Of a stretch of 64,000 nt of DNA, positions 4,332 to 46,927 are shown piece by piece. Both the position numbers and the translations under genes were made by a program. This DNA comes from Thermococcus zilligii AN1 (lineage in GTDB: Archaea; Methanobacteriota_B; Thermococci; Thermococcales; Thermococcaceae). Location: contig NZ_AJLF01000001.1 of assembly GCF_000258515.1 (NCBI RefSeq), positions 310,001-374,000 of the forward strand. The letters are read 5' to 3'. Below the pieces are notes generated by a model. That model worked only from the letters and a program-made list of their open reading frames with translations. It did no database searches and was not told the origin of the DNA. The first letter of the stretch is position 1; each line of letters opens with the position of its first letter.

Positions 4332-4754
4332 TCACCCTCTCTCGTTCTTCTTCGCTGGCCTGAAGGTTATCGCCAGGAGGGGAGGTTCGCTCCCGATGTA
4401 GAGGCTCCCCTTTTCCCGGTTGATATAGAAGCAGTAAACGCCTTCCGGAAGCAGCTCGAGGAACTTTTCCGGAACGGTCTCTCTCACAAGCCTCCCGTCG
4501 AAGAAAACGCACTCGCAGGGGTGCTTTATCCCTTCAACTCTGCCTTTGATCTCCTCCAGCGAAAGCCTCTCGCAGTCGAGCCTGGTGCAGACGAGGCTCT
4601 TCCTTCCGTCCGTGAAAATCACGACCTTTTCGTTTATATTCGCTTTTACCGAGCGATCCAAAAACTCCCAGAGCCTGGAATAAACCAGCTCGAGCTTCTT
4701 TTTCTTTGCAAGCCTCTTGATGAGCCTTTCCTTCGCATGCCTCGTGAGGAGCAT
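4332..4754 (-). CDS. Uncharacterised protein, 140 residues
   Basis: No family recognised. The N-terminus is strongly basic ([20 protein letters not shown]), followed by mixed alpha/beta sequence with [30 protein letters not shown] and [15 protein letters not shown], so it is probably a small soluble protein. The start [14 protein letters not shown] resembles the opening of proteins that begin with a helix recognising nucleic acid, but that is only a suggestion. ATG 4754 is about 25 bp from a TATA box (4773-4784, reading leftward), so the mRNA is probably leaderless. It is divergent from the membrane protein gene at 4875 and shares the regulatory region 4755-4865. Confidence 0.7.
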
Positions 4755-4791
4755 GGTGGCGGTTGCGCTGGGGGCTTTAAACCCTTGCCGG

Positions 4792-4817
4792 CCTGCATAT
4801 GCACCTACACATGCAGG
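4792..4817. promoter_or_regulatory. Inverted repeat and 17-bp element shared with the cheR promoter
   Basis: CCTGCAT (4792-4798) and ATGCAGG (4811-4817) form an inverted repeat around a 12-bp centre. The inner 17 bp, CATATGCACCTACACAT (4796-4812), recur exactly at 45423-45439 on the other strand, upstream of the chemotaxis operon. The site lies between two divergent promoters, about 18 bp upstream of the rightward TATA box at 4835-4844 and about 8 bp upstream of the leftward TATA box. It looks like an activator or operator site. Confidence 0.6.
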
Positions 4818-4834
4818 TTATGACTATGGCAAAA

Positions 4835-4844
4835 AGTATTTAAG
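4835..4844 (+). promoter_or_regulatory. TATA box for the 4875 membrane protein gene
   Basis: AGTATTTAAG, preceded by an A-rich BRE-like stretch (CAAAA). The expected start of transcription is near 4865, giving a very short leader before the ATG at 4875. Confidence 0.55.
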
Positions 4845-4874: not shown

Positions 4875-5240
4875 ATGAAGGCCGGAACCGGGGGGTTAAA
4901 ATACGTCCTCCTCTTCACGGCGTTTTCCTCTGCCGATGCCCTAACTACCTGGCTGGGCACCCGTAGAGGGTTCGCCGAGGCCAATCCGGTGCTGGCGGAG
5001 AGGCTGTCGAGTCCCCTCCTGTTTTTTGGCAGCTTTGCGCTCTTCACGCTCCTTGGAGTGGTGGTGATAGTGCTTTCCCTCCATCTAACTAAAAGGGTCC
5101 CGGCCATGGGCTACTTCCTTGATTTATTTGTGGCCCTGAAGGCCCTCCCCGTGCTGAACAATGTTTTTGTTCTCGCTGGCCTCTCCCCACTGGAGTTAAC
5201 GGTGATGACAACGGCCCAATGGCTTTTGGGCTTCACATGA
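4875..5240 (+). CDS. Small integral membrane protein, DUF5658-like
   Basis: About 121 residues with three to four hydrophobic segments: YVLLFTAFSSADALTTWLG, LLFFGSFALFTLLGVVVIVLSL, a segment after AMGYFLDLFVALKALPV, and a C-terminal one. The first segment with A-D-A-x-T-T-W and the following G-x-x-E-x-N-P-V is the layout I associate with the DUF5658 family, whose function is unknown. ATG 4875 is chosen because the TATA box predicts transcription from about 4865; GTG 4866 in frame is an alternative. The upstream element shared with the chemotaxis promoter suggests common control. Confidence 0.7.
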   Translation: MKAGTGGLKYVLLFTAFSSADALTTWLGTRRGFAEANPVLAERLSSPLLFFGSFALFTLLGVVVIVLSLHLTKRVPAMGYFLDLFVALKALPVLNNVFVLAGLSPLELTVMTTAQWLLGFT

Positions 5241-5274: not shown

Positions 5275-7665
5275 ATGCCCTATCTCCGCAGGGATTTAAT
5301 CGAGCCCCGCGTTTACCAGGAGGTCATCTACGCGAGGTGCAAGGAGCGGAACTGCCTCGTCGTCCTTCCCACAGGGTTAGGAAAGACGCTCATAGCCATG
5401 CTCATAGCGGATTACCGGCTCTCGAAGTACGGGGGAAAGGTTCTCATGTTGGCCCCGACAAAGCCCCTTGCGGTCCAGCACGCCGAGAGTTTTAGAAGGC
5501 TCTTCGACCTCCCTCCGGAGAAAATAAATGTGCTAACCGGCGAGCTTCCCCCCGAAAAGAGGGAGGAGCTCTGGGAGAAGAGCGTTGTGATAACAGCCAC
5601 ACCCCAGACGATTGAGAACGACGTCTTAACAGGCGGGATTTCCCTTGAGGATGTCGTTCTGCTCGTCTTCGACGAGGCCCACAGGGCCGTCGGCAACTAC
5701 TCCTACGTCTTCATCGCAAAGGAGTACCTGAAAACGGCAAAACACCCGCTTGTTTTAGGTCTAACCGCTTCACCGGGAAGCGACGAGGAGAAGATAAGGG
5801 AGATAATCAGAAACCTCGGGATAGAGCACATCGAGGTCAGAACGGAAAGCTCCCCCGATGTGAAGCCCTATGTCCACGGCATTTCCTTTGAGTGGGTCGG
5901 GGTTGACCTCCCCGAAATTTACAGGGAAGTCCGCTCAATCCTCAGGGAGATGCTGAAGGAGAGCCTCAAACCCCTCGCAAACGCTGGCCTCGTCAGTTCC
6001 GCCTCACCTGACATACCCAAGAGGGAAGTCCTACAGGCCGGTTCAAGGATAAACCATGCGCTCTCCCAGGGCGACCACTCCCTCGGTTCCCTCATGAAGC
6101 ACCAGGCGAAGGCTATGAAACTCCACCACGCCATAGAACTCCTTGAGACGCAGGGTCTGACGGCTTTGAGGGCCTATCTGAAAAAACTCCACGAAGACCG
6201 CTCCAGATCGAGCAGGGAACTCATGGAAGACCCCCGCATGAGGAAAGTGGTTTACCTCCTTGCCCAGGCAAAGGAGAGCGGAATTGACCACCCGAAGATG
6301 GAGAAGCTGAAGGAGCTCATAAGGGGCCAGCTCGGGAGAAAGCCCAACTCCAAGATAATCGTCTTCACCAACTACCGCGACACCGGGAAGAAGATCGTCG
6401 AGGAACTCAGGAGGGAGGGAATCTCGGTTGAGCGCTTCATAGGCCAGGCCAGCAGGGCCGACGACAGGGGAATGAGCCAGAGGGAGCAGAAGGAGATACT
6501 TGATAAGTTCTCTCGTGGAGAGTTCAGCGTTTTGGTGGCGACGAGCGTCGGCGAGGAGGGTCTGGACGTCCCGGAGGTTGACCTCGTGATCTTCTACGAG
6601 CCGGTGCCTTCGGCAATAAGGAGCATCCAGAGGCGCGGGAGAACGGGGCGTCACAGGCCCGGAAAGGTCGTCATCCTCATGGCGAAGGGAACGCGGGACG
6701 AGGCCTACTACTGGAGTTCGAGGAGAAAGGAGAGGGGCATGCTCGAGGCCATAAAGAAAATTGCCCGGGAGCTTGAGTCAAAAACTAAAGAGGAGCGGGC
6801 TGAAATAAGGGAAAAAGCCCCGGAGAGTGCTGATATGGGCAGGGGAAAGATAGCACCCCTGGACGCATTCCTGAAGCCGAGACGGGAGGAGTTGCCCAGG
6901 GTGAGTGAAAGTAGAGAAGGGGAAAGCCCGAATATCGAAAAAGCGGAACCCGAAGGGCCCACAGGGGAAGCCAGGGAGCCCCCAATAAAGCCGATCTTCG
7001 CTGGGAGGCCCCAGGGCATCGTCGTCTATGTTGACTCCCGCGAGCTGAAGAGCGGCGTGCCAAAGCTTCTGAAGGAGCTTGGGGCTGAGATTGAGGTCAG
7101 AACTCTGGACGTTGCCGATTACGTCGTCAGCGAGGAGGTTGGAATAGAAAGGAAGAGCGCCAACGACTTCATACAGTCGATAATCGATGGAAGGCTCTTC
7201 GACCAGGTTGAGCGGCTAAAGAAAGCCTACGAGAAGCCGGTGATAATCATCGAGGGCGAGCTTTACGGCATAAGGAACGTCCACCCCAACGCGATAAGGG
7301 GAGCTATAACGGCCGTAACGCTCGACTGGGGCGTTCCCATCCTGTTTTCCTCGGGCAAGGAGGAGACCGCCCATTTCATTTACCTGATGGCAAAGCGCGA
7401 GCAGGAGGAGAGGAAGAAAGAAGTCCGCCTCAGGAGCGAGAAGAAGGCCCTTACTTTGGCGGAGAGACAGCGCCTGATAGTTGAAGGCCTCCCGAACGTC
7501 TCAGCAACCCTGGCGAAGAGACTCCTGAAGCACTTCGGCAACGTGGAGAGGGTTTTCACCGCCACCGAGGAGGAGCTCAGGGAGGTCGAGGGAATCGGCG
7601 AGAAAAAGGCGAGGGAGATAAGGAAGGTCATTACCGCACCCTACGTCGAGGATGAGATTGAATGA
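5275..7665 (+). CDS. hef: Hef: fused superfamily 2 helicase and XPF-type nuclease
   Basis: Hef processes stalled replication forks and branched DNA in Euryarchaeota, as an archaeal relative of FANCM and XPF. In order: helicase domain 1 with Walker A LPTGLGKT (31-38) and VFDEAHR, LGLTASPGS, helicase domain 2 with VATSVGEEGLDVPEVD and SIQRRGRTGR, a polar disordered linker (about 510-580), the ERCC4 nuclease domain with VDSRE and ERKSANDF near residue 622, and tandem helix-hairpin-helix at the C-terminus (about 732-790, LPNVSATLAKRLLKHFG and VEGIGEKKAREI). At 796 residues it is slightly longer than the roughly 760 I recall for Pyrococcus Hef. The linker contains APLDAFLKP, a degenerate PCNA-binding-like motif. 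Confidence 0.97.
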   Translation: MPYLRRDLIEPRVYQEVIYARCKERNCLVVLPTGLGKTLIAMLIADYRLSKYGGKVLMLAPTKPLAVQHAESFRRLFDLPPEKINVLTGELPPEKREELWEKSVVITATPQTIENDVLTGGISLEDVVLLVFDEAHRAVGNYSYVFIAKEYLKTAKHPLVLGLTASPGSDEEKIREIIRNLGIEHIEVRTESSPDVKPYVHGISFEWVGVDLPEIYREVRSILREMLKESLKPLANAGLVSSASPDIPKREVLQAGSRINHALSQGDHSLGSLMKHQAKAMKLHHAIELLETQGLTALRAYLKKLHEDRSRSSRELMEDPRMRKVVYLLAQAKESGIDHPKMEKLKELIRGQLGRKPNSKIIVFTNYRDTGKKIVEELRREGISVERFIGQASRADDRGMSQREQKEILDKFSRGEFSVLVATSVGEEGLDVPEVDLVIFYEPVPSAIRSIQRRGRTGRHRPGKVVILMAKGTRDEAYYWSSRRKERGMLEAIKKIARELESKTKEERAEIREKAPESADMGRGKIAPLDAFLKPRREELPRVSESREGESPNIEKAEPEGPTGEAREPPIKPIFAGRPQGIVVYVDSRELKSGVPKLLKELGAEIEVRTLDVADYVVSEEVGIERKSANDFIQSIIDGRLFDQVERLKKAYEKPVIIIEGELYGIRNVHPNAIRGAITAVTLDWGVPILFSSGKEETAHFIYLMAKREQEERKKEVRLRSEKKALTLAERQRLIVEGLPNVSATLAKRLLKHFGNVERVFTATEEELREVEGIGEKKAREIRKVITAPYVEDEIE

Positions 7666-37208: not shown

Positions 37209-39452
37209 TCAAAGCTTGAAGTTGCTTGTTTCCCTGCGTAGCTCTCCCACAATGTTCTTGAGCTCCTCCGCGGCCCTCTTGAGTTCTTCTATAGCGGCCG
37301 TCTGCTCCTCAACGGCCGAGCTGACTTCCTCAGCGGAGGCCGTTGTTTCTTCTGCCGAAGCGGCGAGGGTCTCCAGGGCTTTCAAGGCCTTATCTATCTC
37401 CTCCTGCGTGCGGAGTATTTGCTCCTTGACGTGGCTGAGCTTGCTTCCTGTCTCGTTGATGAGCTCGGCTATGTTGGTGAGGTACTCCGTGGTCTCCCTG
37501 AGGGCCTTGGAGCTCTCGCCAACAACGCTCACACCACGCTGGGTGGCGCTAACTGCGCCGCGGACTTCCTCAGTCATCTTTCCGATGATGTTCTTGATGT
37601 TGTCGGCGGCCTTCTTGCTCTCCTCGGCGAGGTTCCTTATCTCCTGGGCAACCACAGCAAATCCTCTACCGGCTTCACCGGCCCTGGCCGCTTCAATGGC
37701 CGCGTTCAAAGCGAGCAAGTTAGTCTGCTCGGCGATGCCAGTTATGACGTTGGTTATCTCCTCTATGTTCCTGCTCATCTCGTTGACCCTGTTGACCGCT
37801 TGCTCTATTTCGCTCATCATCTCCTGGATGCTCTCGATCTGCTGGGCTGAGATTTCACCCTTCTCTTTGCCCTCGGAGGCTATGTTGATTATCTCCTGAA
37901 CAGCTCCCTCGAACTCCTCCATTGCCCTGACGCTCTCCTCACTGACGCTTGAAACGAGTTTAACGCCCTCAGTTATTTCGTTTATGTTCTCCTGCTGTCT
38001 CTGGGCCTCAACGCTCACCTGCTGGACAGCCTCGTTCACCTGGCTGATGGCCTCGGTGACATCGCTCGCTATCTGGGCCAGCATGTTGGAGTGCTTTTCA
38101 AGCTTCTCCGTGAGGCCAACTATGTTGCCGATTAACTGCCTCATCTTGGCGCTCATGTCCTTAACGTCCTCTATGATTTCTCTCAGTTCGCCCTTTGCCT
38201 CGACGCTCAGGCCGTTGCTGAGGTCGCCCTCGGCCAGGCGCTCAAGCTTCTCCGCTATGCCCTGCAGGGTTCCCACCATGTCCTTCGAGACGGACTCGAA
38301 GGCTTTTATGAGCATGCCTATTTCATCTTCCTCAAGGTACTTAACACCGCGGAGCTTCTCCCTGACCTCGCTCAGCTTACCTTCTGCGAGCGCCTGGGCA
38401 GCCGCCCCAAGGGCAACCATGGGAGCCATGGCCGAACCGATGGTCCTGTAGGCTATGAGGATCATCACCGCTGAGACCAGCAGGAGCAGGCCCATCATCA
38501 GGTAAGCGGTTCTCTGCATTTGCTCCGATACCGTGTTGATAACTTTTACTACGCCCTGGGTAACCTCTGCTGTGGGCACCCTTGCGAAGACGTACCAGCC
38601 AGTGCTGGGTATCCTATAGCCGGCCGCGGTGACCTGAACTCCGTTCCAGGTGTAGGTAACGACGCCGCTCGCCTTACCGCTCCTCACTATATCTGCTACA
38701 GGTTTGAGGCTCTCCTCCTGGAACACGTTGAGCTTCATGACGTAGTCCTTGTTCGGGTGGGCAATTGTTAAGCCTTCTTTGTTGACGACGTAGGCGTAGC
38801 CAGTGTCACCCACCTTAGCGTTCTTTATTTCCTCAACGAGCGTGTCTATGAAAACGTCGAGTCCTATAACACCAACGAGCTTGCCGTTCCAGTAAACGGG
38901 CACGGCATACGTAATGACCCACTTGCCAGTGGAGGCATCCTGATAGGGGTCGGTCCAAACTTCTTTTCTGGATTGCACCGCACCCTGGTACCAGGGCCTC
39001 ACGCGCGGGTCATAGCCGGGCGGAAGCTGCTGCTTGGGGTAGATGAACATGTTGCCGTTCACGTCACCGAAGTAAACCGAACTGACCTTACTCTCTGCAT
39101 CTGCTATCGCCTTGAAACGCTTCATCAGAATGTTGTCCAGGGCTTGGGCATAGTTTCCTTCTCCGAACCTGTAGCCTTCAGCTTCCATATCACTTATCGC
39201 TATCTGGATAAGGGAAGACGTTGCCCTTCCCAGGACCTCAACCCCCTGGAAGAAGGCTTCGAAATTATTCGCCAGTGCCTCGGACTTGGCACTTACACTC
39301 TGTTCGGCCCACCCCTGAATCAGGGGCCCGACCTCATTGTTTATCTGGCCTGCCATGGTGTTTTTGTTGTAAAGGAGCATCCCGCTGGCCAGCACTGCTA
39401 AGACAACTAATCCCAAAACTACGACGGAAAGGATTTTCTTCTTAAACTCCAC
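37209..39452 (-). CDS. Methyl-accepting chemotaxis protein with dCache sensor
   Basis: Transmembrane chemoreceptor, about 747 residues. Order: membrane helix [20 protein letters not shown], extracytoplasmic double Cache domain (about 35-330) with [35 protein letters not shown] and VGVIGLDVF, second helix [24 protein letters not shown] (about 345-400), then the signalling coiled coil with the conserved tip [33 protein letters not shown] split here. The R-x-W-Y plus later Y/D pattern resembles amino-acid-binding dCache domains. GTG 39452 has GGTGGT four bases upstream and overlaps the end of the second cheC. Confidence 0.93.
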
Positions 39453-40077
39453 CTTCACCACCCCCGGTTTCTCTAACCTGCTCCTCCAGTTTCGTTACGA
39501 GCTTTTCAAAGGATTTCTCATCTGGCACAAGATAAAAATAGCTCTCAAACCCGACGTTTTCTTCATAAAAGCGTGTTTTGAACAGCATGATGTTCTCGAC
39601 GTTCCTCAGGTCCGGTCTGTTGAGTTCTCTCTCGACGTCGTAGAGGGAAGCGATGGCTTTGGGGGGGCTCAGGGACACGGGCTCCCCCAGGAGTTTTGCA
39701 AGGATATCCGTGTAAACTGAGATGAGAATGTTGCCCACTTCCGTTACTGCCGACCTGCCCATGTCATCGAGCTCCTGCACTCCGGAAGGGTCCATCCCCA
39801 TGAGGGTGGCGGAGAGGTTTATCGCACTCCTCTCCGGGAACTGGAGGATCGCGAGGCCCCTGAGACCCTCGGTGATGTCGAAGCCCACAACGAAGCTACT
39901 TGATATTCTGTTCTGGAGTAGATGCTTCAGGAACTCAACGCGCGAGAGTATCTTCACCTCCGGGGGCTCCATCTCTATTGGCCCGCCTATCATCTGGGAG
40001 AGAGAAGTAACTGCGTGGCTCATCGCTATGTTGGATGCTTCCCGGAATATGTCCTTAAACCACTCGTCTATCTTCAT
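39442..40077 (-). CDS. cheC: CheC-type CheY phosphatase (second copy)
   Basis: CheC removes phosphate from CheY-P and binds CheD. 211 residues. The second phosphatase motif is intact ([27 protein letters not shown]-x3-E-x2-N then P); the first site [24 protein letters not shown] keeps the E-x2-N (E-A-S-N). Sequence between differs clearly from the neighbouring cheC, so they are diverged paralogues rather than a recent duplication; in Halobacterium different CheC types bind different partners, including CheF. ATG 40077 overlaps the stop of the first cheC; its own end overlaps the mcp start. Confidence 0.9.
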
Positions 40078-40697
40078 ACCATCCCCCCTGTGAGCTTTTC
40101 TATGACTTTGACCATGTCCTCGGGCTTGGGGAGGATGAAGAAGTGCTCCTTGAACTCCAATCCCTCCACGCTTATGGTCGTTCCGAGCAGTATCGTGTAG
40201 TCGCAGTGCTGTCCTATGTCTGCCAGGGCAAAATCGAGCACAGCGGGAAGGAAGTCTATCGCCATCTCTGGAGGAGTCTGCTCGATTGTCAGTCCGAGAA
40301 ACTCGCTGAGGGCGTTTGCGTAGGCTGAGATGAGTATGTTGCCCATCTCCATCACGGCGGACTGAACCATTTCGTTTATCTCCTTCGTCGTCCCGGGTTC
40401 CTGCATCGTCATGAGGTCGAACAGGGCACAGGCATCGTCGAAGTCCAGGATGAAGAACGCGTGCCCGCTGAACTCCTTTCCAAGGCCGACGTAGACTGCC
40501 ACCTTCACGTCCTCCCCAACCTTCTCTGGGAGGACTTTTATTGGGATCACTTCCAGGCCTGGGACAGTTATGCTGACCGGGTGGCCGATCATCTGGCTCA
40601 GTGTGTCCGCGGCCTTTGAAGCGCCTATGTTAAAGGTCTCAAGCAGGGCGCTCTTCTCGAAATCCCCGAGTTCTTTTATGCTCTTATCATAATCCAC
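40074..40697 (-). CDS. cheC: CheC-type CheY phosphatase (first copy)
   Basis: 207 residues, CheC family. Both active-site motifs are intact: KSALLETFNIGASKAADTLSQ with E and N three apart, and QSAVMEMGNILISAYANALSEFLG with the same pattern, each followed by the expected proline. Two intact sites are the mark of canonical CheC, able to dephosphorylate CheY-P, especially when bound to CheD. ATG 40697 lies 10 bases inside the end of cheA; the gene ends with a 4-base overlap with the second cheC gene, so translation is coupled. Confidence 0.92.
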   Translation of the reverse strand: MDYDKSIKELGDFEKSALLETFNIGASKAADTLSQMIGHPVSITVPGLEVIPIKVLPEKVGEDVKVAVYVGLGKEFSGHAFFILDFDDACALFDLMTMQEPGTTKEINEMVQSAVMEMGNILISAYANALSEFLGLTIEQTPPEMAIDFLPAVLDFALADIGQHCDYTILLGTTISVEGLEFKEHFFILPKPEDMVKVIEKLTGGMV

Positions 40698-43023
40698 CGC
40701 CTAAACCTCCCAGCAAGCTGTTTATGTCAACGATAAGAACAACACTGCCGTCTCCAAGAATCGTGGCCCCGGCAAAGCCCTTAAGGTTCGACAGGGCCTT
40801 CCCGAGGGACTTTATGACTATGTCCTTCTTGTGGAGTAGTTCGTCAACTCTAAGGGCAATCTTCTGCGCTCCGAAGTCCACTATTATCGCAGGGAACTCC
40901 TCTCTCTCAGGGTGTGGAAGTCCAAAGAGCTCGTTGAGGGAGATGAGGGGTATTATCTCGCCCCTCAGGACTATCACTTCCTTGCCGCCGATTGTCTTGA
41001 CGTCTTTCATTTTGACCTCCAGGGTCTCCAAAATGTTGTTTATGGGTATCGCGTAGGTCTCGTCTTCCACCTTGATGAGAAGGGCCTGCACGATGGCCAT
41101 GCTTATGGGGAGCTTAAGGGTAAAGGTCGTCCCCTTGCCCACTTCGGTCTGGACGCTTATGCTTCCGTTGAGGGCTTTGATGACGTCTTGGACGACGTCC
41201 ATGCCAACGCCCCTTCCGGAGACGTCGGTTACCTTTTCAGCTGTGCTGAAACCTGGCATGAAGATCAGGTTTATTGCCTCCTCCCTGCTCATCTCCGCCG
41301 CCTGCTCCGGGGTTATGATTCCCTTCTCGATTGCCTTCTTCTTCACCTTTTCCGGATCAATACCCCTGCCATCGTCCCTCACCATTATGACGACGTGGCT
41401 TCTCTCGCGCTTGGCTATGAGCTCAACCTTTCCTACCCTTGGCTTCCCAAGTTTTTCCCTCTCCTCCGGCGGCTCAATTCCGTGGTCTACTGCGTTTCTG
41501 AGCAGGTGAACGAGGACGTCGCCGAGCTTGTCGAGAATCGTCCTGTCGACCTCTATGTCGGCCCCCTCGATTATGAACTCGACCTCCTTGCCCATCTTCC
41601 TGGCAAGCTCGCGCACCATGCGCGGGAACTTGTTAAAGACCTCCTCTACAGGAGTGAGGCGCATCTGCATTATCTCGTCCTGGAGCTCGGCCATCAGGCG
41701 GGACGTCGTGGAGAGGCTCTCGAGGAGCTCCCTATCACCAAGCCTCTCCGCTATCTGTTCAAGTCTCCCGCGGTTTATCACGAGCTCGCCCACGAGGTTC
41801 ATGAGCTTGTCGAGGTGGGAGACATCGACTTTGATGAGCTTGGACATCTTGATCTTCTCTTGCTTGACTGTCTGGGAAGCCTTTGCTTCGGGCTTTCTTT
41901 CTGGTTTTTCCTCCTTTTCGGCCTCCTCTTTGGCGACGCTCTCCTCTCCTTTGAGAGCAACTTCCTCTCCAACGGCGACGCTCTCAACGTCTGGGTGTTT
42001 GAGTATCGCCGCTTTTATCTCTCCCATTGGCTTGGAGGGCACCATTACAACCTCAAAGTATTGGCCCTCAATAAGCTCGCCGTTCTGGATGGCATCGGGT
42101 GAAGGGTTTGTCTCGAGGACGTTCCCCATTTTCTGGAGATCCTGGAGGATGAGGAAGGAGCGTATTCCCTTTAGGGGAGCTTCCTTCTGGAGAACGACCC
42201 TGATGGTTACCTTTCCCGGGCCAGCCGTTTCTGCCCTCTTTCCGGTTTCCTCCCCCAGGGGGGTCACGATCGCCTCCTTGACCTCCGGATGCCTGGTCAC
42301 AATCTTTTTGATCTCCTCCGGAGGGACTTTCGTCCTGATCCTGAACTCAAGCTCGCTCTCATCGGCGGATCCATCCTCTATTACCTTTCTGTCCGGCTTT
42401 GTCTCCAGAACGTTCCCCATCTCCTCAAGGTCGCTCAGTATCAGAAAAGCCCTTACCCCTCTCAGCTGGGCGTCCGGATGGAACACAACCTTAACTAAGT
42501 ACTCCTTTCCCTCTTCGCCAGACGGTGGTATCTCCTCTTTTCTCTCTTTGGTTTCTTCCCTTTCCGGTGGTCTCTTCTCGGGCTTCTCCTCCCTCGGGGG
42601 CTCTTTTTTCTCCCGTCTGTACCCTTTCAGCAGTTTATCGGCCTCCTCAAAGAGGCCGTCTACGTCGACTTCACCTTCGTTCCCAGTTTCCTCTATGTTG
42701 TTGACCATGCTCTCGATCGCGTCTATAAACTCAAGGACGAGGTCCACTACCTCCGGCGTCGCTTCCACCACACCGTTCCTTATGGCGTCGAAGAGGTTCT
42801 CCATCTTGTGGGCCGTCTCGCTGAGCTTCATGAAGCCCATTGTGGCCGCTGTACCCTTGAGGGTGTGGGCATCCCTGAATATCTGGTCTATGCTCTCCCT
42901 CTTTGCCTCCTCGTCGCCTTCCTTGACTGCGTCTTCGAGCTTGAGAACGGCGTTGCTTATGCTGTCTATCCTGTCCCGGGCATCAGCGAGGAACTCCTCA
43001 ATATACTGAGACATGTCCTCCAT
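40687..43023 (-). CDS. cheA: Chemotaxis histidine kinase CheA
   Basis: 778 residues. Order: Hpt (P1) with the phosphorylated histidine in DAHTLKGTAATMGF (H53); an acidic linker; two similar CheY-binding (P2-like) modules at about 165-260 and 270-350, sharing RAFLIL-D-L-MGNVLET blocks; linker; P3 dimerisation helices (KLIKVDVSHLDKLMNLVGELVINRGRL cut here); P4 ATPase with HLLRNAVDHGIE, MVRDDGRGIDPEK, SGRGVGMDVV; and P5 CheW-like domain to the end. Tandem P2 modules are less common than a single one. ATG 43023 has GAGGTGA six bases upstream. Confidence 0.95.
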   Translation of the reverse strand: MEDMSQYIEEFLADARDRIDSISNAVLKLEDAVKEGDEEAKRESIDQIFRDAHTLKGTAATMGFMKLSETAHKMENLFDAIRNGVVEATPEVVDLVLEFIDAIESMVNNIEETGNEGEVDVDGLFEEADKLLKGYRREKKEPPREEKPEKRPPEREETKERKEEIPPSGEEGKEYLVKVVFHPDAQLRGVRAFLILSDLEEMGNVLETKPDRKVIEDGSADESELEFRIRTKVPPEEIKKIVTRHPEVKEAIVTPLGEETGKRAETAGPGKVTIRVVLQKEAPLKGIRSFLILQDLQKMGNVLETNPSPDAIQNGELIEGQYFEVVMVPSKPMGEIKAAILKHPDVESVAVGEEVALKGEESVAKEEAEKEEKPERKPEAKASQTVKQEKIKMSKLIKVDVSHLDKLMNLVGELVINRGRLEQIAERLGDRELLESLSTTSRLMAELQDEIMQMRLTPVEEVFNKFPRMVRELARKMGKEVEFIIEGADIEVDRTILDKLGDVLVHLLRNAVDHGIEPPEEREKLGKPRVGKVELIAKRERSHVVIMVRDDGRGIDPEKVKKKAIEKGIITPEQAAEMSREEAINLIFMPGFSTAEKVTDVSGRGVGMDVVQDVIKALNGSISVQTEVGKGTTFTLKLPISMAIVQALLIKVEDETYAIPINNILETLEVKMKDVKTIGGKEVIVLRGEIIPLISLNELFGLPHPEREEFPAIIVDFGAQKIALRVDELLHKKDIVIKSLGKALSNLKGFAGATILGDGSVVLIVDINSLLGGLGGGL

Positions 43024-43029
43024 GAGGCT

Positions 43030-44097
43030 TCACCTCGGGATCTTTTTTAGGGCCATAACAATGGTATCCGCGATTTTATCCAGCGGCACAACGTAATCAA
43101 CGACGCCAAGCTCTATGGCAGCTTTTGGCATTCCGAAGATTATCGAAGTCTCCTTATCCTGCGCTATGGTTATCCCGCCTTGCCTTTTTATCTCCGCCAA
43201 TCCCTCGGCCCCGTCACGCCCCATCCCTGTCATGACGACTCCAACGGTTTTCTTCCCGAAGAGGTTGGCCACGCTCTTCATCATTGGATCCGCGGCAGGC
43301 CTCACACCGTGGATCTTTGGGCCATTGTAGAGCCTTATCGTGGGCTTGCCGTTCCTCATCGTGACCTCCATGTGATAGTCGCCCGGTGCCACGTAGGCCC
43401 AGTTGTTGTAGACCACCTCCCCGTCTTCGGCTTCCTTGACGTTGATGTTTGATATGTTGTCCAGCCTCATTGCAAAGGATTTTGTGAACCCCGGGGGCAT
43501 GTGCTGGACGAGGAGAACGCCAGCGTCCAGCTCCCCGGGGAGCTTTTCAAAAACCCTGAGGAGTGACTGTGGCCCACCTGTGGAGGCGGCTATCGCAACT
43601 GCCCTCACGGCGGCCTCTTCCCTCTTTTTGACCTTGGTAATCTGCTCCCTGAGGAGCCTCTCCCTCCTGAAGTGGAGGAACTTCAGGGGAACTCTCGCCG
43701 CCTCCTTGACCTTTGCTATTATCTCCTCCCTGAGCTCCCTCATGTTCATTGAGATCGAGGAAGAAGGCTTGGGAATAAAGTCTATGGCACCGTATTCGAG
43801 GGCTTTTATAGTGGCTTCCGCTCCCTCCTGCGTCAGGGCGCTCACCATTATGACCGGGGTGGGGTACTTGCTCATTATGAACTTCAGCGCGTCCAGACCA
43901 TTCATGCGGGGCATCTCTACGTCCAGGGTTATGACGTCTGGTTTATGCTGTTTGACCTTTTCGATGGCCTCAGCTCCGTCCCGGGCTTCGCAACACACTT
44001 CAATCTCTGGATCAGACTCCAGAATATCCCGGAGTATCTTTCTCATGAAGGCGGAATCATCAACTACGAGCACCCTGATCTTCTTCTCAAGTGGCAT
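43030..44097 (-). CDS. cheB: Chemotaxis response regulator methylesterase CheB
   Basis: Removes methyl groups from receptors; activated by phosphorylation. About 355 residues: receiver domain with [11 protein letters not shown], phosphorylation site D59 in [13 protein letters not shown] and IPKPSS, a basic linker, and the methylesterase domain with the catalytic serine in [12 protein letters not shown], histidine in [10 protein letters not shown] and aspartate in [14 protein letters not shown] 44097 has GGTGGT four bases upstream, making GTG 44106 unlikely. It sits 12 bases after cheY and 6 before cheA. Confidence 0.95.
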
Positions 44098-44109
44098 TAA
44101 GACCACCTA

Positions 44110-44472
44110 TCATGAGGAAAGAACCCTGTTGACCTCTTCGATGACCTTTGGAGCCTGGAACGGCTTTACAATATACCCCTTGGCGCCGCTCTTCAGCGCC
44201 TCCATGACCTTAGCTTCCTGACCGACGGCCGTTATCATGATGATTCTGGCTTTGGGATCGATCTTCATGATCTCCTTGACCGCGGTTATGCCGTCCATCT
44301 CGGGCATGACTATGTCCATGGTAACGAGATCGGGCTTCAGTTGCTTGTACATCTCAACGGCTTCCTTTCCGTTTCCTGCTTCCCCAACTACCTCGTGGCC
44401 AGCCTGAGTCAGTATCTTCTTAACCAGCGTTCTCATAAAGACGGCATCATCAACTACGAGCACCTTTGCCAT
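44110..44472 (-). CDS. cheY: Chemotaxis response regulator CheY
   Basis: Single receiver domain of 120 residues that carries the signal from CheA to CheF and the archaellum. Key residues: D8 and D9 (VLVVDDAVFMR), phosphorylation site D53 (VTMDIVMPEMDG), T81 (IIMITAVGQ) and K103 (YIVKPFQAP). ATG 44472 follows the cheR stop by 6 bases with GGGGAGGTGAATTC upstream. It belongs to the long che operon read leftward from the promoter near 45400. Confidence 0.96.
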   Translation of the reverse strand: MAKVLVVDDAVFMRTLVKKILTQAGHEVVGEAGNGKEAVEMYKQLKPDLVTMDIVMPEMDGITAVKEIMKIDPKARIIMITAVGQEAKVMEALKSGAKGYIVKPFQAPKVIEEVNRVLSS

Positions 44473-44478
44473 TTGAAT

Positions 44479-45315
44479 TCACCTCCCCGGCAGGTTTTGG
44501 TTTTTCACATATATCCTTGCGACCAGGTCGTAGAGTTTAAACAGCTGGGCGGCGTTGCCCAGGATGGTTTCAGTCTTTCCAAGAATTAGATACCCGTGAT
44601 TCTCAAGGGAGTCGTAGAGCTTCCGAAAAACTCCCTCCTGCGCCTCCTTGGTCATGTATATCAGCACGTTTCGTATGAAGATCATGTCAAAGCCTCTGGG
44701 ATAAGCGTCCGACAGGAGGTTGAACTGCCTGAACTGAACGTGGCCCCTTATTTTCGGGGAGATGCGGTAGTGGTCCCCCATCGGAAGAAAGTACTTGCTG
44801 ATCATGTGCTTTGGAACGCTCTTCTCCACGATCTCCCTGGGGTAGATTCCCTTGATGGCCGTGTTCAGGGCCTCCCTGTCGATGTCGGTGGCCAGTATCT
44901 TAATATTGAACCGAGGTAGCTGATCCCCGAGGAACTCACTGAACATCATGGCTATTGAGTACGGCTCCTGCCCAGTGGAGCACGCCGCGCTCCAGACGTT
45001 TATGGTGCTGTCATGGTGCCGTTTTTTGAACTCAATGAGCTCGGGAAGGACTTTCCTCTCCAGCGTTTTCCAGACAATGGGATCCCTGAAAAATTCCGTG
45101 ACGTTTATGGCAACGGTAAGGAGGAGATCCTCGAGTTCCTGCTTGTTCCTCTTTATCAGCTGGTAGTACTCCATGAAGTCGTTTATTCCGAGCTTCCGCA
45201 TCCTTGCGCGTATCCTCCTGATGAGGTAGGAGTCTTTATACCCCTGGCCGCTGGTGTTCAGGTGCTTGAAGAGCTCCTGCTTTATAAGCTGATAGCCCCT
45301 GTCTTCGGTATCCAT
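44479..45315 (-). CDS. cheR: Chemotaxis protein methyltransferase CheR
   Basis: Methylates glutamates of chemoreceptors with SAM. 278 residues: the N-terminal helical domain (LIRRIRARMRKLGINDFMEYYQLI), then VTEFFRDPIVWKTLE, the SAM site in VWSAACSTGQEPYSIAMMFSE, ILATDIDREALNTA and the catalytic-domain end FIRNVLIYMTKEAQ. The length is normal. ATG 45315 has GGAGGT eight bases upstream. First gene of the che operon; its leader is about 60 bases and the shared 17-bp element lies just upstream of its TATA box. Confidence 0.95.
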   Translation of the reverse strand: MDTEDRGYQLIKQELFKHLNTSGQGYKDSYLIRRIRARMRKLGINDFMEYYQLIKRNKQELEDLLLTVAINVTEFFRDPIVWKTLERKVLPELIEFKKRHHDSTINVWSAACSTGQEPYSIAMMFSEFLGDQLPRFNIKILATDIDREALNTAIKGIYPREIVEKSVPKHMISKYFLPMGDHYRISPKIRGHVQFRQFNLLSDAYPRGFDMIFIRNVLIYMTKEAQEGVFRKLYDSLENHGYLILGKTETILGNAAQLFKLYDLVARIYVKNQNLPGR

Positions 45316-45396: not shown

Positions 45397-45405
45397 ATTA
45401 AAAAA
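45397..45405 (-). promoter_or_regulatory. TATA box for the che operon
   Basis: Leftward TTTTTTAAT. Transcription is expected near 45375, giving a leader of about 60 bases before cheR. Confidence 0.45.
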
Positions 45406-45410
45406 CCCTT

Positions 45411-45443
45411 GCGTGTATGTGTATGTGTAGGTGCATATGTAGG
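45411..45443 (-). promoter_or_regulatory. TACATA-like repeats and shared 17-bp element upstream of che operon
   Basis: Reading leftward, TACATA (45441-45436) is followed by three TACAC(A/G) units in 6-bp steps. The 17 bp at 45423-45439 are identical (opposite strand) to 4796-4812 upstream of two uncharacterised genes. The site abuts the leftward TATA box, the position used by the archaellum activator EarA, for which I recall TACATA-type sites in Methanococcus. The mcp-cheW promoter lies about 60 bp away on the other side. Confidence 0.55.
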
Positions 45444-45502
45444 GTTTATCAAGGCTTTTTTTCGCGAAATCGCTCAGCCCAGATTTGAAAACGCCCAACG
45501 AA

Positions 45503-45512
45503 AACTTTTTAT
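45503..45512 (+). promoter_or_regulatory. TATA box for mcp-cheW
   Basis: AACTTTTTAT preceded by CGAA. Predicted transcription start near 45533, leaving a leader of about 75 bases. The whole region 45316-45610 between cheR and mcp carries only regulatory sequence. Confidence 0.4.
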
Positions 45513-45610
45513 GTTCTTGTTGAATAGTAAACAGTGTTTGAGGGGCATTTTGATCAACCCCCAGCTTGGGCTCGAATCACACTTGGACTATCTCCAGTTC
45601 GGTGGTGAAT

Positions 45611-46927
45611 ATGAGAGCGACAATAGCCGGTGCCGTTGTAGCTCCCCCGGTAGTTGCCGGGCTCCTTGCGTATAGTGGACACCCCCTGATAGGACTCGCC
45701 GGTGGAGTTGCCGTCGGCGTTGTTGTGGCCGAGTACGTTGAGAACGCGTACATCCAGAGGAACAAGTATGCCCTCGTGAAGAAGGTTCTCGCGGCCCTCA
45801 GCAGGGGAGAAAGCGTTTCGATACCTCCGGAACTCAGTGATATTGAAGAATACTTAGTAACCCTGGAGAAGCGTGAAAGCCCAGATCTCCGCTCCCTCCT
45901 TGAGGATCTCAACAGGGTGGCCCAGGGCGATCTCAAGGCTAAAGTTCCTGCGACGTCGGCACTTCTTAAAGCTTACAACGAGGTCAAAAGGAACTGGATA
46001 GAAATGCTTGCAACTATAAAGGACACGCTTCGGGACATTAAGAATGACCTGGGTAGCATCGGTGAAGCCGCCGGATCCCTCGAGGCCCTGGAACGTGCTT
46101 ACGATGCTCTAAACAACCTCGTGTCCCGCCTTGAAACGCAGAGCCTTAAGATAGCTGAGCTCAACGACCACATACAGGCCCTTTCCGCTGCCATAGAGCA
46201 GATAAGCACCCAGACCCAGCAGGTTGCGGAGTTTACAATAGAATCCGCCAAAGCCGCTGAGGACGGGAAGAAGATTTCCGATGAGGCCGCCCTGAAGGTC
46301 GCCAAGATCAATGAGGTAAGCAAGGATATGGAGCAGGCGGTCAAGATACTCTCGGAGTACTCCGAGAAAATAGGACAGATCGTTGACGTCATCACGGATA
46401 TCGCTGAGCAGACTAACTTGCTCGCTTTGAACGCGGCCATTGAAGCGGCCAGGGCCGGTGAGCAAGGCAGGGGATTTGCTGTGGTTGCAGACAGCGTTAG
46501 GGAACTCGCGGAGCAGTCCCGGAGCTCAGCCAAGCAGATAGGTGACCTCATAAAGGAGATGCAGGAGAGTGTTGGTAGCGTTGTTTCCTCCATACACGAG
46601 AACACTCAGGTTACCTATGAAGTTGGGGAGTCCATACAGCACCTTATAGCGGCCTTTGATGACATCGCAAGGAGGGCGAATGAGATAGCCAACATGATGA
46701 ACGAGATATCCAAGGGCGTTGACCAGCAGGCAAGTGCCGTCCAGTACCTGGTGAGCGCCGTGGACGGTATATTGTCCGTTAACTCCGAGCTCTCAGAGAC
46801 CGCCAAAGAGGCCGTGGAGATCTCAAGCGAGGCGTCATCAAAGGCCAGGCCACTGAGGGGGATACTCAACCGGTTGGTTGGGCGGCTTGAAGGGCTTATT
46901 GGTATCGTTGAACGTATCAAGGTTTGA
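45611..46927 (+). CDS. Methyl-accepting chemotaxis protein without sensor domain
   Basis: 438 residues. Two close hydrophobic stretches at the N-terminus ([19 protein letters not shown] and [15 protein letters not shown]) with almost no loop between them, so no extracytoplasmic sensor. A HAMP-like region follows (about 60-115, [16 protein letters not shown]), then the signalling coiled coil with tip [21 protein letters not shown] and [21 protein letters not shown]. It may respond to membrane state or to a cytoplasmic partner. ATG 45611 has GGTGGT four bases upstream; the in-frame ATG at 45566 is less likely. cheW follows after 11 bases. Confidence 0.92.

Follow-up and report, generated by a model that had tools for sequence, protein, structure and literature searches.

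A predicted EarA-type promoter element shared by archaellin and chemotaxis genes of Thermococcus zilligii and its relatives

Introduction

Why does a chemotaxis operon of Thermococcus zilligii AN1 share 17 bp of its promoter with a small membrane protein gene located 40.6 kb away? The sequence, CATATGCACCTACACAT, occurs at 4796-4812 on the plus strand and at 45423-45439 on the minus strand of the DNA analysed here (a stretch of 64,000 nucleotides, referred to as the window), exactly as reported in the initial annotation, in which the repeat was linked with the archaellum activator EarA and the divergent genes at 4332 and 4875 were tentatively placed in the motility regulon.

EarA is essential for archaellation of Pyrococcus furiosus, and its sites have been proposed from the archaellin promoters of Thermococcales (PMC10665913); in Methanococcus such sites are required (PMC5512572). 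In both Methanococcus and Pyrococcus the protein has been proposed to help TFB onto a weak BRE (PMC5512572, PMC10665913). The Thermococcales motif of Stöckl et al. (2023; PMC10665913) reads A(C/G)(C/G)TACA(T/C) and is present in up to three repeats, 9 nt before the BRE of arlB0. It was described at arl only, the che operon being absent from the text although the reads of Villain et al. were used, and wider EarA targets in chemotactic Thermococcales (e.g. T. kodakarensis) were posed as a question. Villain et al. (2021; PMC8643681) reported a 23-bp motif, TTTGTGTABSTGBTTATGTAGGT, whose function was called unclear, at T. kodakarensis promoters that respond jointly to gyrase expression, i.e. those of fla, che, the MCP genes TK0156 and TK2147, the AAA ATPase gene TK1139 and the FprA-type gene TK1605. 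In that work EarA is not mentioned and an effect of DNA topology is considered. The fla and che genes are likewise co-regulated in T. kodakarensis histone mutants (PMC8155482).

Results

With their flanks, the two copies form the 24-mers CCTGCATATGCACCTACACATGCA and CCTACATATGCACCTACACATACA, which agree at 22 positions and differ at two, both G/A, as first described. Each copy is followed, in the same orientation, by a TATA box (TTTTTTAAT at 45397-45405 on the minus strand for the che operon, and TATTTAA at 4837-4843 on the plus strand for the membrane protein gene), in agreement with the initial annotation. The accompanying claim that chance recurrence of 17 bp is very improbable proved wrong: order-3 Markov simulations of the window contain on average 1.1 exact repeats of at least 17 bp, and the window itself contains 10, several of them between related coding sequences. 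What makes the case for an element is its position and conservation, not the repeat as such.

According to pattern and family searches, on which our genome-wide statements are based, the 1.76-Mb genome contains no exact copy of CATATGCACCTACACAT beyond the two in the window. When three mismatches are tolerated, a shuffled window would be expected to contain 0.02 matches to this particular sequence. At the same tolerance the whole genome contains five, at the che, DUF5658 (the membrane protein gene), arl (C1:389935) and DUF835 (C1:129907) promoters and at one further position. The shorter sequence CACCTACAC is found exactly 17 times in the genome; four of these lie in promoters, 20 or 26 bp from a TATA box, and all readable non-promoter copies lie within apparent coding sequence, so that the scatter over non-motility positions that would speak against a motility element was not seen.

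The che copy is part of an element at 45412-45444 on the minus strand (CCCTACATATGCACCTACACATACACATACACG), built of ACCTACAY/TACAYA units in a 6-bp register and including the 17-mer. The distance from the end of CTACAC to the TATA box is 20 nt, as in the archaellin promoter. Pfam matches confirm the gene order proposed for the operon, which is encoded on the minus strand and begins with cheR (44479-45315; CheR, 8e-57), followed by cheY (44110-44472), cheB (43030-44106), cheA (40687-43023) and two cheC-type genes (40074-40697 and 39442-40077). The end of the operon is overlapped by an MCP gene with a dCache domain (37209-39461, minus strand; Pfam). A divergent MCP gene (45566-46927, plus strand; Pfam) has a TATA-like sequence of its own, CTTTTTAT, at 45505-45512, and in its T. 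zilligii promoter (45505-45565) no EarA unit in register was found. In relatives (e.g. loci L066 and L068) this promoter carries a ACCTACAT-type unit, CTACAT, about 9 nt before the TATA box, which is apparently missing in T. zilligii and in genome G018. The two MCP genes also share an exact repeat of 56 bp (window positions 37714 and 46406), corresponding to a conserved signalling domain.

A genome-wide search for the motif, particularly at the archaellum operon, had been recommended in the initial annotation, and it located the motif in the archaellin promoter. The arl match (CACATACATGTGCACATACACAACCACCTACACTACTAAGAACAAAAAAGGCCTTTATA) is located upstream of the first archaellin gene, at a distance of about 100 bp. 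The T. zilligii units ACCTACAC-TACTAAGAA-CAAAAAAGG agree letter for letter with the EarA motif of Stöckl et al. The earA gene (PF07381, 2.5e-33), present in a single copy, adjoins arl in divergent orientation, with che 34 kb from it. Among the loci compared (L013, 2388-2723, and the relatives L015-L044), seven relatives share this divergent arrangement, while in others earA precedes arl and has its orientation, a difference that reflects a rearrangement at the archaellum locus.

The fourth site precedes a gene encoding a 150-aa DUF835 (inactivated-KaiC) protein, and here again, as at arl and che, 20 nt separate CTACAC from the TATA box. Immediately upstream of the DUF835-promoter element we observed a C/D-box sRNA (L003, 1432-1486; Rfam sR14, 47.5 bits, above the gathering score), and nearly all relatives show a C/D-box-like block at the corresponding position. 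The same element, as GTGTAGGTTATTGTGTAGGC (L255, 1928-1948; G000:C2:238927-238947), is present in the promoter of an FprA-type metallo-beta-lactamase gene that has a soluble MCP gene behind it; in T. zilligii and two relatives (L237 and L243) its units have the opposite orientation to the gene.

A position weight matrix was derived from 17 distinct archaellin promoters, all from other species. Applied to the window, it gave its two top scores, 24.3 bits each, to the che and DUF5658 copies, the third-best site reaching 12.7 bits; the best scores in 20 simulated 64-kb sequences averaged 10.9 bits, with a maximum of 18.8. In the archaellin promoters of relatives the element takes the form ACCTACATATGCACCTACACAACCACCTACAC, and its first two units correspond in essence to CATATGCACCTACACAT.

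Among 61 genomes of the genus, earA is present in 45, archaellins in 47 and a close cheR in 18, all 18 of the latter having earA. The element was found upstream of every one of these cheR orthologues (18/18), with CTACAY at a nearly invariant distance of about 20 nt from the TATA box. Its conservation (94% vs a median of 62%) exceeds that of every other 20-column stretch of the region. The element is kept both where che lies a few kb from earA and where the two are much further apart (34 kb in T. zilligii, 350-550 kb in G012, G016 and G018). The short DUF835 orthologue is preceded by the element in 27 of 27 genomes (damaged in two), in most of them at the same 20-bp spacing. An extended pattern gave 79 matches in the genus vs 3 for the reversed pattern, and its additional sites precede dCache chemoreceptor genes, a Vps4-like AAA ATPase gene and, inverted, the FprA-type gene with its MCP. 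When all GTDB genomes were scanned with the exact extended pattern, most matches came from unrelated bacteria, at a rate like that of chance, and Thermococcus MAGs were also among them. The looser pattern CTACAY-N17-29-TTTAWA gave 8 matches in the T. zilligii genome vs 6 for its reverse; a TATA box with a single unit is therefore too unspecific for naming new targets.

Four genomes (G008, G015, G030 and G038) lack earA, archaellins and cheR and retain the DUF835 gene. In the two closed ones the DUF835 promoter is damaged (ACTTACAC in G008, and a deletion between element and TATA box in G015); in the drafts G030 and G038 the element is intact. A damaged core was seen in none of the 23 earA-positive genomes (Fisher p = 0.017, relatedness being ignored), which lends weak support to EarA dependence of this promoter. 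Co-occurrence of the DUF835 gene with earA across the genus was not significant (p = 0.09, with species that are not independent).

The second copy in the window belongs to an EarA-like element at 4792-4817 on the plus strand (CCTGCATATGCACCTACACATGCAGG; 17-mer included), located between the two divergent genes. One of them (4875-5240, plus strand, ATG at 4875) encodes a small membrane protein assigned to Pfam DUF5658 (8.4e-08), also in accordance with the initial annotation, and just downstream of it lies a hef-type helicase/nuclease gene (5275-7665; DEAD/ERCC4). The other (4332-4754, minus strand), with a TATA-like TTTAAA at 4776-4781 (minus strand), encodes a conserved 140-aa protein of no assigned family (no match in Pfam or NCBIfam), which has an orthologue in L256. 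This neighbourhood is preserved among relatives. The core of the DUF5658 copy is the che 17-mer, and its spacing departs from the arl-type 20-nt register, since the end of CTACAC is 26 nt from the TATA box, i.e. one 6-bp step further upstream. Moreover, the element has inverted-repeat arms (4792-4798 and 4811-4817), and the palindromic form TACATATGTACCTACATATGTAGGTTCTGACT is kept in most DUF5658 promoters of the genus.

Discussion

The most likely reading of the che element is that of a predicted EarA activator site, and every sequence test available for it (the archaellin-promoter motif, the published motif with its register, and the 18 of 18 cheR orthologues) gave a result in favour of the EarA assignment made in the initial annotation. 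In broader terms, we consider it quite likely that the 17-mer represents the core of a Thermococcales EarA-type activator element present at the arl, che, DUF835, FprA-MCP (inverted) and 4332/DUF5658 promoters; here we infer EarA binding and activation from the sequence, position, register and conservation observed. The element consists of TACAYA/ACCTACAY units on a 6/12-bp grid and is directly followed by a weak BRE. EarA, whose single gene adjoins arl, would bind the units at these promoters as at arl and, once bound, would recruit TFB to the weak BRE. Through its action at both arl and che, the genes for motor and steering would be expressed together, i.e. the chemotaxis genes would be made when archaella are made. 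Since the che element is a conserved element of archaellum-gene promoters, one regulator, most likely EarA, probably switches both. At the DUF5658 copy the motif may be recognised likewise, with an output that is perhaps different or even opposite. Several observations weigh against the overall reading: the DUF835 element is intact in G030 and G038, and the DUF5658 element is kept in G008 and G030, although these genomes lack earA and archaellins; TK1020, the probable DUF5658 orthologue, rises where fla and che fall; and the units at the FprA-MCP promoter are inverted.

The predicted element resembles the EarA sites of arl in Methanococcus maripaludis and Thermococcales (PMC5512572, PMC10665913) in its motif, in adjacent repeats on a 6-bp grid, in the weak, A-rich BRE downstream and in the presence of earA in the genome. 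It differs in range: the published sites are those of the archaellin operon only, whereas in T. zilligii the che, DUF835, FprA-MCP and DUF5658 promoters are also included. The resemblance to the 23-bp motif of Villain et al. (PMC8643681) is equally close, as the reverse complement of the latter, ACCTACATAAVCASVTACACAAA, comprises two EarA units 12 bp apart, and both occur at the same kinds of promoter (fla, che, MCPs, AAA ATPase, FprA). In contrast, these authors named no binding protein, and the DUF835 and DUF5658 promoters are not in their list. The studies of 2021 and 2023 each contain half of the answer.

The place of the DUF5658 copy in a regulon switched on in motile cells is less secure. 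It may be that the 4332/DUF5658 element is read by another regulator, or by EarA acting as a repressor, the gene pair being independent of motility or reciprocal to it; we rate this as a serious competitor, with somewhat less than an even chance. It would account for the 26-bp rather than 20-bp register and for the palindromic arrangement (ACCTACATATGTAGGT), which is accompanied by an additional conserved TTCTGACT block, and it agrees with the retention of the element in G008 and G030, which have neither earA nor archaellins (in the closed genome G008 one base is missing from the TATA region, AGTATTAAG vs AGTATTTAAG). Against it stand the identity with the che copy over 17 bp, the equal score with the archaellin-derived matrix and the presence of earA in 28 of the 30 genomes that carry the DUF5658 gene.

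Expression data point in the same direction as this competitor. In T. zilligii (G000) and in G012 the gene that directly follows DUF5658 is hef, which in T. kodakarensis is TK1021; from this gene order, the DUF5658 gene is probably TK1020. In strain TS622, TK1020, annotated as a 'hypothetical membrane protein', is the top enriched transcript after histone B (3.5-fold), and those of fla and che show some of the strongest depletion (PMC8155482). This contrast comes from a single condition and the assignment of TK1020 from its neighbourhood; nevertheless, as the transcript rises where fla and che fall, the DUF5658 copy, if read by EarA, may not be an activator site. Membership of the 4332 and 4875 genes in the motility regulon, as first proposed, is supported by the identical 17-mer and made less secure by the register, the palindromic variant, its persistence without earA and the opposite behaviour of TK1020. 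A dual role of EarA, which would activate the archaellum, chemotaxis, DUF835 and receptor genes and repress DUF5658 through the palindromic site shifted by 6 bp, thereby forming a reciprocal switch between motile and non-motile states, is a rather unlikely scheme.

Following the suggestion of Villain et al., the element could also be a promoter sequence sensitive to DNA topology or chromatin, with no dedicated activator. The strong and opposite responses of fla and che in T. kodakarensis to gyrase expression and to histone mutation fit this idea, which we nevertheless regard as improbable: the spacing relative to the BRE does not vary, the units correspond to sites of EarA that are required in Methanococcus and proposed at Thermococcales archaellin promoters, and topology might exert its influence via the level or binding of EarA itself. 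That the 17-mer is a functionless chance repeat, as the frequency of about one such repeat per simulated window might suggest, is refuted by the comparison of 18 che and 27 DUF835 promoters, with their near-fixed spacing and archaellin-promoter match.

In the papers cited here, EarA of Euryarchaeota appears as the activator of one operon; should it also drive the chemotaxis genes, it would be a master regulator of motility. The 'supercoiling' motif of T. kodakarensis would then gain a protein, and the sites found here provide specific promoters for the question of wider EarA targets. An ESCRT-like ATPase may be co-regulated with motility as well: upstream of the gene of the Vps4-like AAA ATPase (probably TK1139), five species (L236, L239, L241, L245 and L248) have the sequence AGCTACACAACCACCTACACAAAAGCGCTATAA, a textbook promoter of the EarA type.
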